Assembly: GCA_019119875.1 (NCBI GenBank)
Contig: DWWG01000162.1
Coordinates: 1-51,241, forward strand
From: Candidatus Dietzia intestinigallinarum
GTDB lineage: Bacteria; Actinomycetota; Actinomycetes; Mycobacteriales; Mycobacteriaceae
Direction of reading: 5' to 3'
Length of the DNA: 51,241 nucleotides
Under the pieces are notes generated by a model, which saw only the letters and a list, made by a program, of their open reading frames with translations, was not told the DNA's origin and did no database searches. The stretch's first letter is position 1. The number at the start of each line of letters is the position of its first letter. Positions 10,187-50,639 of the stretch are shown in pieces. The position numbers and the translations under genes were made by a program.

Positions 10187-10280
10187 CGCGTTGAGCGCGC
10201 CACCGTGCTCCCCGCCGACTCGCCGCACGCGTTGAGCGCGCCACCGTGCTCCCCGCGGACCCGCCGCACGCGTTGAGTCG
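10187..10280. repeat. Tandem 41-bp repeat between adoK and asnB
   Basis: Two full 41-bp units (10187-10227 and 10228-10268) differ at two positions. A third unit begins at 10269 and diverges after nine bases. Each unit opens with CGCGTTGAG. The array is non-coding and lies between convergent genes. Confidence 0.85.
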
Positions 10281-47259: not shown

Positions 47260-47667
47260 ATGGGGAAGACCAACGGGTTGAGGGTCGCCGGCGGGGGTGG
47301 TGTGAGGACACCTCTCGGACGGGCGGAGCGCGCGGAAGTGCATCGCGGACGGGCGCTGTCCGCGTCCACACCCGAGGACCGGTTCGTCGAGGCGTATCGC
47401 GCCGCCCGCTCCGCCGCCGGTGCGTTACTCGTTCCCGGCGCCAGGCGGCGTGGACCGGCGGACGTCTGGCATCGCCTCGCCGTGGAAGTCCCGGAGCTGC
47501 GCGAATGGGCGGTCGCGTTCGGGGGTTATTCCGCACTCGCCGCTGCGGTGGAGGACGGGCTTCCCCGCTCAGTGCAGCCGCGGATGGCGGATGACTTCCT
47601 CTGGGCGGTAGGGCGTTTTCTCGACCTCGTGGACGAGCGGCTGGGGGTCCTGGGGCCCGCAGCATGA
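47260..47667 (+). CDS. SAV_6107-type HEPN domain protein
   Basis: A 135-residue basic, helical protein. After a disordered basic N-terminus (about 1-35), the helical core contains DRFVEAYRAARSAAGALLVPGARRR and VWHRLAVEVPELREWAVAFGGYS, which I recognise as the SAV_6107 HEPN family of actinobacteria. HEPN proteins are often RNases or partners of toxins, but no RxxxxH catalytic motif is clear here. ATG at 47260 has a poor ribosome-binding site (GGAGATGGG farther up). It is divergent from the GNAT gene with about 100 bp between. Confidence 0.75.
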   Translation: MGKTNGLRVAGGGGVRTPLGRAERAEVHRGRALSASTPEDRFVEAYRAARSAAGALLVPGARRRGPADVWHRLAVEVPELREWAVAFGGYSALAAAVEDGLPRSVQPRMADDFLWAVGRFLDLVDERLGVLGPAA

Positions 47668-47742
47668 GCGTGTTCGTCGGCCTCCACGAAAGTCCCCCGC
47701 CCGTCCTGGGGAATCTCGGTGGTCACGGCGGCGTTGCCCTCG

Positions 47743-47748
47743 TATGAT
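47743..47748 (+). promoter_or_regulatory. Candidate -10 element for the DUF3040 gene
   Basis: TATGAT, a near-consensus -10 hexamer, about 96 bp before the GTG at 47844, in the 176-bp gap after the HEPN gene. Confidence 0.4.
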
Positions 47749-47843
47749 GGGAAGAGCCTTGACCGGCTTATCACAATACTGGTCGGGTTTCGCCGACACA
47801 GCCGGCCGCGCTCGTCAACCGCGAGCATTTGAAGGAGGTCGAA

Positions 47844-48263
47844 GTGCCCCTGTCCGAGCACGAGCAGCGCATGCTCAAGGAAATTGAGAGCGCGCTCTAC
47901 GCCGACGACCCGAAGTTCGCGTCGTCCGTTCGCAAGACCGGTGCCGCAGGCGTTCGCCGCCCCACCGGTCTGGTGGTGGGACTCGGCGTCCTCGGACTGG
48001 CTCTCCTCATCGGTGGTCTGGCGCTGGACGTCAAGCCGGGAGGATTCCCGGTTCTCAGCCTCATCGGCTTTCTGACCATGTTCGCGGCCGGAGTCCTCGC
48101 ACTGCGATCCCCGTCTGGTTCCACTGTCGTCGGCGCGAAGAAGTCCGGTGGCCCGCGGCTGCCGGGGAGCGGTCGGGCGTCGTCCTCGGGGTCTGGCGAC
48201 GGGCGGTCCTACTCCACCAGGATGGAGGACCGTTTCCGGCGGCGCTTCGAGCAGGAGCCCTAG
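47844..48263 (+). CDS. DUF3040 membrane protein (Rv2169c-like)
   Basis: A 139-residue protein. The N-terminal helix PLSEHEQRMLKEIESALYADDPKFASSVR is the DUF3040 hallmark. It is followed by two membrane helices (about 45-65 and 70-92) and a Gly/Ser/Arg-rich cytoplasmic tail. Function is unknown; the gene sits just before mraZ throughout the order. GTG at 47844 has AAGGAGG five nt upstream. It is followed by a clear terminator, so it is not co-transcribed with mraZ. Confidence 0.9.
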   Translation: MPLSEHEQRMLKEIESALYADDPKFASSVRKTGAAGVRRPTGLVVGLGVLGLALLIGGLALDVKPGGFPVLSLIGFLTMFAAGVLALRSPSGSTVVGAKKSGGPRLPGSGRASSSGSGDGRSYSTRMEDRFRRRFEQEP

Positions 48264-48281
48264 CCGGTCCCGGAATCTTCG

Positions 48282-48313
48282 GAAGGGGCGAGCGCACCCG
48301 CGCTCGCCCCTTC
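48282..48313 (+). terminator. Terminator of the DUF3040 gene
   Basis: Perfect 13-bp arms (48282-48294, 48301-48313) with a 6-nt loop, 18 nt after the stop, followed by a weak T-rich stretch (GGCCATTTG). Confidence 0.8.
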
Positions 48314-48323
48314 GGCCATTTGA

Positions 48324-48466
48324 CCTCGCCCCACTATGCCCCACGGGGTGAGCCCTCGCCCCACCGTGCCCCACGTGGTGAGCCCTCGCCCCACCGTGCC
48401 CCACGGTCGGTGACCCGGTTACCGCTCACCGGCCCGCGGTGACTCGCCCCACCGTGCCCCACCTTG
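48324..48466 (-). repeat. Inverted array of GTGGGGC box pairs, 30-bp period, upstream of mraZ
   Basis: Three tandem 30-bp units start at 48324, 48354 and 48384, and a fourth copy starts at 48442. Each holds two GCCCCAC (GTGGGGC on the minus strand) exactly 10 bp apart: 48328/48338, 48358/48368, 48388/48398 and 48446/48456. The box and the 10-bp spacing equal those of the mraZ operator at 48868-48924, but the orientation is opposite. A further degenerate pair (GCCCCAC-N3-CTCCCAC) lies at 48702-48718. Confidence 0.85.
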
Positions 48467-48867
48467 AGATCCGTGACCCGCCCGGGGCAAGGGTGCTGCG
48501 GTGTGCGGTGAGCAGGACAGATGGGTGAGCGCCATGCCTGAGCTGTGGCGACTCGCCGCGACGGGCCGTTCTCCCGCACATGTCGACGGTTCCCCGGGTG
48601 TGCGCTTGCTGTCGTCAGGCACGGTCAGCCCCGGGGCGGAATGTTGCCGGCCCGTGTCCTCTGACTCGGAAAACTCATGGCACCTGCAGGCCTGGTCCGT
48701 CGCCCCACTTTCTCCCACCGAGAACGCCACATTATTCACACTGGGCTTCTGGGGCCACTTTTATCCCTGTTGTGCGTCGATGGATCGCCGGAAAGTGGCT
48801 GAGCTGTGCTCTGGCGGGCCCGTGTCGGCTTGTAAATCAACGCTGTGAACTGGGGTGATGTGGCTTG
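48467..48867. other. Non-coding stretch between the distal box array and the mraZ operator
   Basis: No gene is supported. Open frames here lack ribosome-binding sites and recognisable sequence. The part from about 48660 to 48860 is visibly less GC-rich than the rest of the window, with runs such as CCACATTATTCACACTGG. Apart from the degenerate box pair at 48702-48718, I see no other structure. Confidence 0.5.
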
Positions 48868-48924
48868 GTGGGGGAAAGTGGGGCGCAGACCTTGTTTGTG
48901 GGGCGTTGTGGGGTAGAGTGGGGC
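48868..48924 (+). promoter_or_regulatory. MraZ operator: five GTGGGGN boxes on a 10-bp grid
   Basis: Boxes start at 48868 (GTGGGGG), 48878 (GTGGGGC), 48898 (GTGGGGC), 48908 (GTGGGGT) and 48918 (GTGGGGC); only the 48888 slot is empty. MraZ rings are known to bind TGGG-type direct repeats with 10-bp spacing ahead of their own gene. A promoter lies within it: TTGTTT (48892-48897) and TAGAGT (48914-48919), 16 bp apart, so MraZ binding would cover the promoter. Confidence 0.85.
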
Positions 48925-48966
48925 ACGCACGGAGCTCAAAGGGTCTGAACCCTCAGGAGGTGGCGG

Positions 48967-49443
48967 GTGACCGACACCGATCCCGGCGACTCCGGGCGTG
49001 AACGAGCCTTTGTCGGGTATGGGACACACCGTCCCAAACTCGACGACAAGGGGAGGCTGACGATCCCCGCCAGATTCAGGCCCGGCCTGGCGGACGGGGT
49101 GGTCGTGTGTGGGTGGTTCACCAACACGCTTTCGGTCTTCCCTGAAGACGAGTTCGACGCGCTGGTCAGAAAGGTCCGGCCGACCGCCAACCTCAGCGAG
49201 AGGCACATGGCGTTCTTCCGGCTCCTGGTGAGCGGCGCGGAAGTCCAGCAACTGGACTCGCAGGGGCGGATCTCCATCCCGGCGAGTCAGCGGAAATACG
49301 CAGGTCTTGGGAAAGACTGCGTCGTCAACGGCCTCGGGGAACGACTCGAGGTCTGGGACGCCGACGCGTGGGACCGCTACAGCGAAGAGAACCTGCCCGC
49401 GTTCTCCGAGATGGAGGGCACCTCGCTCGGGATCGAATTCTGA
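48967..49443 (+). CDS. mraZ: Transcriptional regulator MraZ
   Basis: A 158-residue first gene of the dcw division cluster; it represses its own operon by binding upstream repeats. Two AbrB/SpoVT-like halves are visible: GTHRPKLDDKGRLTIPARFR (about 19-38) and VQQLDSQGRISIPASQRKYAGL (about 94-115). The GTG at 48967 has AGGAGG upstream. Compared with the usual start of MraZ just before the GTHxPxLDDKGR block, this protein has about 14 extra N-terminal residues; no closer start codon has a better ribosome-binding site. 173 bp separate it from rsmH. Confidence 0.95.
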   Translation: MTDTDPGDSGRERAFVGYGTHRPKLDDKGRLTIPARFRPGLADGVVVCGWFTNTLSVFPEDEFDALVRKVRPTANLSERHMAFFRLLVSGAEVQQLDSQGRISIPASQRKYAGLGKDCVVNGLGERLEVWDADAWDRYSEENLPAFSEMEGTSLGIEF

Positions 49444-49616
49444 TCCGGGGAGAGGACACGAGAAGAAGACGCACGACAGCACGACGGACGGAGCCCCCCG
49501 GCCCCTGCCCGGCATCACCCTGACGTACTTCCCCAACGCCAGGTGGGTATCGGACGGGGACCAGGGGGCTCCACCACAACCGGAGCAACCACCGGATCCG
49601 GCCGCGAGGAGGCGAG

Positions 49617-50639
49617 ATGGCAGCAGAGCCCGATGCCGATCGCGAACCCGCGCGTTCCGGGCACGTCCCGGTGTTCCTCGAGCGCACTCTCGAGCTCTTC
49701 CAGCCGGTCGTCGAGGCGGCCGCGGCAGAAGGTCGCATGCCGGTCATCGTCGACGGGACGGTGGGGCTCGGAGGACACACCTCCCACATGCTCGCCGAGT
49801 TCGACTCACTCCGTGTGCTCGGGGTCGACCGTGATCCGGCCGCCCTCGAGATGGCGACCCGACGGCTCACCGCGTTCCGCGACCGGTTCACCCCGGTCCA
49901 TGCCCGTTTCGACGATTTCGACGCGGTGGTCGCGGCACTCCCGGTGGACTCCACCGACGACGCCGGTCCGGCGATCGACGGCATCCTCCTCGACTTCGGC
50001 GTCTCCTCGATGCAGCTCGACGTGGCCGACCGCGGCTTCGCCTACTCGGTCGACGCGCCACTCGACATGCGGATGAACCCGACCACCGGGCCGACCGCCG
50101 CCGACATCCTCGCCGACTACTCGCGAGATGACCTGGCCCGGATCTTCCGGGTCTATGGAGAGGAGCGGTTCGCCCGCCAGATCGCCGCTGCCATCGTCCG
50201 GCGCCGCGAGACCGAGCCGCTGCGCACGAGCTCCGAGCTCGTGGCGCTCCTCTACGACACTATTCCGCAGGGCGCGCGCCGAACCGGGGGTCATCCCGGG
50301 AAGCGCGTGTTCCAGGCCTTGCGGATCGAGGTCAACGCCGAGCTGGAGGCGGTCGAGAACGCCGTGCCCGGTTACCTCGACCTCCTTCGCGGAGGCGGCC
50401 GCGCGGTGTTCATGTCCTACCACTCGCTCGAGGACAAGATCGTCAAACGCGAACTGTCCGCGCGAACCGCCTCGCGAACCCCTGCGGGACTGCCGGTGGA
50501 ACTCCCGGGTCACGGGCCCGAATTCGCGGCCGTCACCCGCGGGGCGGAGAAGGCCTCGCCCACGGAGATCGACCACAACCCACGCTCGGCCTCGGTCCGG
50601 GTGCGATGTGTCCGACGTATAGACGGGAGGACCCCATGA
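49617..50639 (+). CDS. rsmH: 16S rRNA (cytosine-1402-N4)-methyltransferase
   Basis: A 340-residue SAM-dependent methyltransferase (RsmH/MraW) modifying the ribosomal P-site cytosine 1402. N-terminal HVPVFLERTLELF, SAM-binding DGTVGLGGHTSHML, DGILLDFGVSSMQLD, FAYSVDAPLDMRMN, and the C-terminal MSYHSLEDKIVKRE are all present. ATG at 49617 is preceded by GAGGAGG. The stop overlaps the ftsL start (ATGA). Second gene of the dcw cluster. Confidence 0.97.
   Translation: MAAEPDADREPARSGHVPVFLERTLELFQPVVEAAAAEGRMPVIVDGTVGLGGHTSHMLAEFDSLRVLGVDRDPAALEMATRRLTAFRDRFTPVHARFDDFDAVVAALPVDSTDDAGPAIDGILLDFGVSSMQLDVADRGFAYSVDAPLDMRMNPTTGPTAADILADYSRDDLARIFRVYGEERFARQIAAAIVRRRETEPLRTSSELVALLYDTIPQGARRTGGHPGKRVFQALRIEVNAELEAVENAVPGYLDLLRGGGRAVFMSYHSLEDKIVKRELSARTASRTPAGLPVELPGHGPEFAAVTRGAEKASPTEIDHNPRSASVRVRCVRRIDGRTP

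Follow-up and report, generated by a model that had tools for sequence, protein, structure and literature searches.

The mraZ promoter of Candidatus Dietzia intestinigallinarum is preceded by MraZ-type boxes that are inverted relative to the operator at the promoter. Computation found these boxes in a constant orientation and with a regular spacing, conserved among relatives and located almost exclusively at mraZ, and their link to MraZ is well supported by the sequence comparisons. In the window, i.e. the whole analysed stretch of 51,241 nucleotides, they form a far array of four pairs and a further pair closer to the promoter. The far array probably represents auxiliary MraZ operators that would bridge to the promoter operator and tune the division cluster. 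We infer that MraZ may bind the inverted boxes, loop the DNA between the two sets and repress by means of this loop. MraZ is a transcription factor that is conserved very widely among bacteria, and its action on the division cluster is not settled.

The inverted boxes between the DUF3040 gene and mraZ

The features of the locus are listed with their coordinates in the window and their strand.

47829-48263, plus strand: DUF3040 gene (PF11239), the upstream boundary of the intergenic region
48282-48313, plus strand: hairpin after the DUF3040 gene, probable terminator
48328-48344, minus strand: far inverted box pair 1 (GTGGGGCATAGTGGGGC)
48358-48374, minus strand: far inverted box pair 2 (30-bp unit)
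48388-48404, minus strand: far inverted box pair 3 (30-bp unit)
48446-48462, minus strand: far inverted box pair 4
48702-48718, minus strand: distal inverted MraZ box pair (GTGGGAGAAAGTGGGGC; GTGGGGC and GTGGGAG), at a place conserved in Dietzia
48753-48770, plus strand: diverged copy of the GTCAC block, resembling the MtrA motif GTCACA
48846-48853, plus strand: TGAACTGG, a copy of the TGAMCTGC-type element
48868-48924, plus strand: proximal mraZ operator, five GTGGGG boxes at 0/10/30/40/50
48892-48919, plus strand: predicted mraZ promoter, TTGTTT (48892-48897), 16 bp, TAGAGT (48914-48919)
48967-49443, plus strand: mraZ (158 aa, PF02381)

The far array is located in the 703-bp gap between the DUF3040 gene and mraZ. 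It lies about 11-15 bp past the hairpin at 48282-48313, a perfect 14-bp hairpin without a long T-run, which agrees with the initial annotation, where the array was placed behind the DUF3040 terminator. GTGGGGC was read on the minus strand at 48328, 48338, 48358, 48368, 48388, 48398, 48446 and 48456, and these eight boxes make up four GTGGGGCN3GTGGGGC pairs, exactly 10 bp apart from start to start, between 48328 and 48462. The boxes and pairs had been described as such and their positions were confirmed; the pair motif occurred 4 times in the window vs 0 times in 100 dinucleotide shuffles. Pairs 1 to 3 lie in 30-bp tandem units, as had also been claimed (TRF: 48324-48406, 2.8 copies, 92% matches), and pair 4 starts 58 bp beyond the start of pair 3. 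Another tandem repeat, of 41 bp, was observed elsewhere in the window (10187-10277, 2.2 copies, 96% matches).

The boxes of the proximal operator start on the plus strand at 48868, 48878, 48898, 48908 and 48918, which is the arrangement of 0 and 10, then 30, 40 and 50, given in the initial annotation. Its claim that the far array has the same layout holds loosely. Both sets contain 10-bp pairs with gaps, but the box starts are spaced 10/20/10/20/10 and then 48/10 in the far array and 10/20/10/10 in the proximal operator. The MraZ profile PF02381 gave a single match in the genome (E 1.4e-30), and mraZ is thus present and adjoins the boxes. By identity of MraZ, the closest named relatives are Dietzia aurantiaca, Dietzia sp. 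NCCP-2495 and D. aerolata with 97% each. An Rfam scan of 47400-49600 returned the mraW RNA motif, a known element (RF01746, 67.1 bits; 49483-49583) between mraZ and rsmH, and nothing beyond it, with no match near the inverted boxes. A scan of 47600-49700 for promoters and terminators gave one sigma-70-like site (47720) and a pair of terminator-like sites, of which one is at 48744-48756; about as many would be expected by chance.

The exact pair GTGGGGCN3GTGGGGC was found four times in the whole genome (3.55 Mb), every time in the far array, and its letter-reversed control was found once. Allowing one mismatch added 10 sites, of which 3 belong to the mraZ operator and 7 lie at other places, and at two mismatches the pair (125) was no commoner than the control (258). 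The form GTGGGGN4GTGGGG had 8 matches, of which the far array holds 4, the mraZ operator 3 and another contig 1, and its control had 3. In 8 other Dietzia genomes, 9 of the 11 exact pairs were at mraZ and 2 (genomes G016 and G019) were away from it. Strong MraZ-type sites are largely confined to the dcw promoter region, with one-mismatch pairs occurring also elsewhere. This concentration of the strong pairs at mraZ ties the array to the mraZ regulator and argues against a dispersed repeat. An element scattered over the whole genome, the counter-case named in the initial annotation, was rejected for the strong pairs, since the exact pair in this genome is confined to the locus.

For the comparison within the genus, 23 Dietzia genomes were searched and mraZ was obtained in 19; 18 of these loci are distinct, two being identical in the region. 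Inverted pairs more than 300 bp above the -10 box were found in four species, with four pairs in the window species, three in D. aerolata and two each in D. aurantiaca and NCCP-2495. Direct pairs at this distance were absent in the same four species, with shuffle means of at most 0.023. The other 15 of the 19 loci had no far inverted pairs, which says little for 11 of the 15 because less than 150 bp of their intergenic region extends that far; in D. cinnamea and in genome G008 the intergenic regions are equally long, yet far pairs are missing. Absence in sister strains, another counter-case, was checked on species and was found in part: far pairs, differently laid out, are present in three sister species and missing from most Dietzia loci. 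In a tree of the mraZ region, the four species with far pairs were grouped together with moderate support (82/97). Since the far pairs occur only in these grouped species, the far array is best seen as a clade-specific extension of an older upstream operator.

The near-identical 30-bp units point to a recent tandem duplication in the window species, and the far array alone might be a neutral duplication of the distal pair with no function of its own. The restriction of the far pairs to one group of four species, with a different layout in each, would fit such an origin. However, each of the four species has two or more far inverted pairs and none has a direct one, and the differing layouts indicate that the boxes are what persists. 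We consider a purely neutral array unlikely, although it deserves serious weight.

Conservation of the inverted set in Dietzia and other actinomycetes

The inverted pair at 48702-48718 was overlooked in the initial annotation. It lies 150 bp above the first proximal box and is the older element, of which the far array is the outer part. An inverted box at this place was found in 19/19 Dietzia loci; it precedes the first proximal box by 150-151 bp in 16 loci and by 160-162 bp in the other 3, so the distances within Dietzia differ by steps of one turn. In 11 of the 19 loci a second exact box, 10 bp away, completes a pair with the innermost inverted one, and the other 8 keep one exact box. Several Dietzia species carry two or three exact pairs that follow each other in 23-bp steps (10/13/10), and D. 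maris has three pairs. In the Dietzia alignment, the DNA between the distal and the proximal boxes mostly drifts, except for two short blocks, and the flank beyond the distal boxes is unconserved. The alignment of relatives that had been proposed thus showed inverted boxes that are kept while the intervening DNA drifts, but the kept element is 48702-48718 and not 48324-48466. A putative second operator at a kept distance was found within Dietzia, and the distances vary more between genera.

The family was sampled with 35 mraZ upstream regions from 24 of the 29 other genera, 34 of them with a recognisable anchor. The locus without an anchor (L058) was excluded from the family counts of boxes, pairs, phase and mid box. 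Genera g2, g6, g15, g17 and g27 were left out of this sample; g2 nonetheless gave four-box matches above mraZ in the search described below. When one locus was taken per genus (24), 87 inverted vs 5 direct GTGGG boxes were counted above the proximal operator (19.4 and 12.1 in shuffles), and the 10-bp pairs were 27 inverted vs 0 direct, with a shuffled inverted mean of 0.05 and a maximum of 1 in 200 shuffles. Within 700 bp, 27/34 non-Dietzia loci, covering 20/24 genera, had one or more exact inverted pairs, and 7/34 loci had none.

The four-box pattern GTGGGN5GTGGGN8GTGGGN5GTGGG (10/13/10) was searched in 301 genomes of the family. It gave 78 matches in 67 of the genomes and 11/30 genera, and a control pattern gave 1 match; this four-box form was absent in 234/301 genomes, that of the window included. 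Seventy-five of the 78 matches were inverted and above mraZ, 37 of 40 at an mraZ that had already been listed (within 700 bp) and 38 of 38 at fetched loci, and none of these 75 placed matches was direct or away from mraZ. The distance to the MraZ match was 188-499 bp in the 46 resolved loci. The remaining 3 matches (two in G140, one in G192) were near contig ends, on contigs other than that of mraZ, and in the two assemblies mraZ itself also lies close to a contig end (109 and 352 bases).

Beyond the family, 33 loci from 30 other actinomycete families were collected, of which 28 loci of 25 families had the anchor and 5 loci were dropped. The pair GTGGRGN4GTGGRG was found above the operator 14 times inverted vs once direct, with shuffle means of 0.015 and 0.005. 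The inverted pairs were distributed over 9/25 families, and in 16/25 none was found with this motif; in five loci the inverted pair lies 71-73 bp above the -10 box and in one locus 83 bp above it. The arrangement is therefore wider than the family of Dietzia. In the same search none of 10 large genomes (7.1-9.9 Mb) of genus g45 in family f16 had an MraZ match, and all the others (108/108) had one. The initial annotation's reading of the boxes as MraZ-type and inverted relative to the mraZ operator is upheld by these comparisons, in which strong pairs are nearly confined to the locus and inverted boxes are seen again above mraZ throughout the genus, in the majority of the family genera sampled and in part of the class.

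The upstream boxes could also act as decoys, which would hold MraZ off the promoter and set the threshold of autorepression by titration, with no loop. The number and position of the sites vary between species, and the far array adds eight strong boxes in the window species. In addition, a common helical phase across 21 genera was not found (Rayleigh p ~0.28 at 10.5 bp; the best of 11 periods had p ~0.004 at 11.25, uncorrected), a result that is easier to reconcile with titration or a larger nucleoprotein complex than with a loop. A decoy, however, needs no fixed orientation, no proximity to mraZ and no fixed distance, yet the upstream pairs of the family are all inverted, 75/78 four-box matches lie above mraZ and all 19 Dietzia loci keep one of two distances. 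Titration alone is for these reasons improbable.

A continuous nucleoprotein complex, in which wrapped or stacked MraZ rings would cover the upstream region in place of a two-point loop, is quite improbable. It would fit the several site groups per locus, among them an inverted box at a middle position, 79-83 bp above the -10 box, in 18/34 loci (14/24 genera) and further inverted pairs in 23-bp steps in the family loci; in the 19 Dietzia loci no exact mid box was found. The long stretches between the site groups contain no exact boxes.

The mraZ promoter and the motifs close to it

The five-box proximal operator (0/10/30/40/50, plus strand) was found in 19/19 Dietzia loci. In the window its boxes 3-5 overlie the predicted mraZ promoter, and an overlap with the mraZ promoter or start was found for the proximal set only, the inverted sets lying upstream of the promoter. 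A direct GTGGGG box followed by the -10-like TANNNT was present in 53/54 loci (53/169 such boxes), whereas TANNNT followed 0/170 inverted GTGGGG boxes and 0/61 exact inverted pairs. The counts of 53/54 and 0/170 were made without the anchor; an earlier proximal count (52/53) was partly built in because the anchor had been defined as GTGGGGT followed by A or G. As TANNNT is missing, the inverted boxes look like operators and not like divergent promoters of the proximal design, and this candidate was rejected. Lying upstream, they would be auxiliary sites and not a classical MraZ operator.

That the inverted boxes serve a divergent promoter on the minus strand, even one of another design, e.g. 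for a small RNA, is very improbable. Their orientation is the one expected for a minus-strand transcript, but in addition to the missing TANNNT, the minus-strand flank of the inverted pairs has no strongly conserved columns outside the boxes, and the region next to the distal boxes is neither conserved among Dietzia nor matched by Rfam. An RNA element, with inverted and direct boxes pairing in a long transcript or with the array folding as RNA, is extremely unlikely: arms of 22 nt with 91% complementarity exist at 48701-48722 and 48864-48885, and for the plus strand of the far array 1/200 shuffles folded as well (z -2.65), but the minus strand of the array folds ordinarily (z -0.91), and in the 11 Dietzia loci where the pair is exact the 5-nt spacer of the distal pair does not vary together with that of the proximal pair (match 32/55 vs 30.0 with shuffled partners, 21% of the shuffles being as high). 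An RNA hairpin between the distal and the proximal boxes was rejected because the complementarity stems from the boxes only.

A block near -205, which reads AGTCACATNAGCCNCA in many loci, was found 34-35 bases from the innermost distal box in 18/19 Dietzia loci with a pattern that had been widened by hand after the alignment was seen (GTCAC 13, diverged forms 5). The plain counts are 13/19 for GTCAC and 11/19 for GTCACA. The spacing of the block to the distal box was also kept in 2 of the 3 loci whose promoter distance is 10-11 bp longer. GTCACA is contained in the MtrA motif GTCACAgcg, according to the available text of PMC2945938. In Dietzia sp. DQ12-45-1b, MtrA was reported to bind a 100-bp mraZ upstream fragment, and the authors concluded that it represses mraZ (PMC9602371, available text); a 100-bp fragment adjoining mraZ would not reach the block near -205. 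The GTCACA-type block is a candidate MtrA site in Dietzia, as a lead only. The TGAMCTGC-type element was found 62 bp above the -10 box in 15/19 Dietzia loci and 63-65 bp above it in 17/34 other loci of the family.

A possible bridge between two operator sets

The explanation that we favour starts, for these actinomycetes, from an mraZ/dcw promoter with a promoter-overlapping MraZ operator and at least one oppositely oriented operator upstream. The MraZ ring oligomer, with its several DNA-binding faces, would most likely bind both sets and bridge them, and in Dietzia the bridging would close a DNA loop of ~150 bp. Such a loop would strengthen or tune the autorepression of mraZ and of the division and cell-wall genes behind it. 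The extra inverted pairs in the four sister Dietzia species may then serve as alternative loop partners and raise the local MraZ occupancy.

Solved MraZ relatives that match the MraZ of the window have 8 to 36 chains per distinct sequence, judged from entry names and chain counts. Two papers, in their available text, describe MraZ as a toroidal octamer that sits on repeats with a period of 10 bp (PMC7761207, PMC5282649). A ring with many faces, two operator sets, their opposite orientation and the one-turn distance steps in Dietzia are best accommodated by bridging, and looping is therefore ranked first, though not firmly. As the boxes of the distal and the proximal set are spaced differently, a single MraZ particle may contact the two sets in different ways.

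Looping repressors with auxiliary operators, such as those of lac, gal and ara and lambda CI, use one regulator with a promoter operator and separate operators. Dietzia differs from these systems in the ring oligomer, the arrays of 10-bp boxes and the inverted upstream set, and the loop is here a proposal. The MraZ operators of the Mollicutes M. gallisepticum and M. genitalium (AAAGTGKN3 repeats) are likewise GTG-core boxes every 10 bp (PMC5282649), and in M. genitalium the MraZ repeat occurs only in the mraZ promoter (PMC8475190). The parts of these papers available to us describe one set of direct repeats in the mraZ promoter and mention no upstream inverted set, unlike in Dietzia. Four 7-nt repeats with 3-nt spacers were reported for Burkholderia cenocepacia (and E. 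coli, as cited there), on an MraZ-bound fragment that overlaps the dcw start (PMC7761207). The repeats described in the available text are promoter-proximal only, which differs from the inverted sets of Dietzia. The MtrA-regulated mraZ promoter of Dietzia sp. DQ12-45-1b is the same promoter in the same genus, and the available part of that paper describes no MraZ boxes or distal sites (PMC9602371). A partial survey of the MraZ literature, with the promoter-proximal repeats of Mollicutes and Burkholderia, gave no distal or inverted MraZ sites, and these may be described elsewhere.

A broader picture can be put forward tentatively. An MraZ loop switch may govern the division cluster of the mycolic-acid bacteria and of a part of the wider actinomycetes, with MraZ rings that would join the promoter operator to old upstream operators of opposite orientation. 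In Dietzia, the MtrA-type site at a fixed distance from the distal operator might let envelope stress signalling open or close the loop, and the far array would be an extension in some Dietzia species.

Taken together, the inverted set, which is common to many relatives, suggests that the switch of the division cluster works through two separated DNA sites. Reporter constructs without the upstream region would miss the inverted set. If the bridging is true, the inverted operator set gives a reason for the ring shape of MraZ, and other signals might reach cell division in Dietzia and its family through the upstream set.
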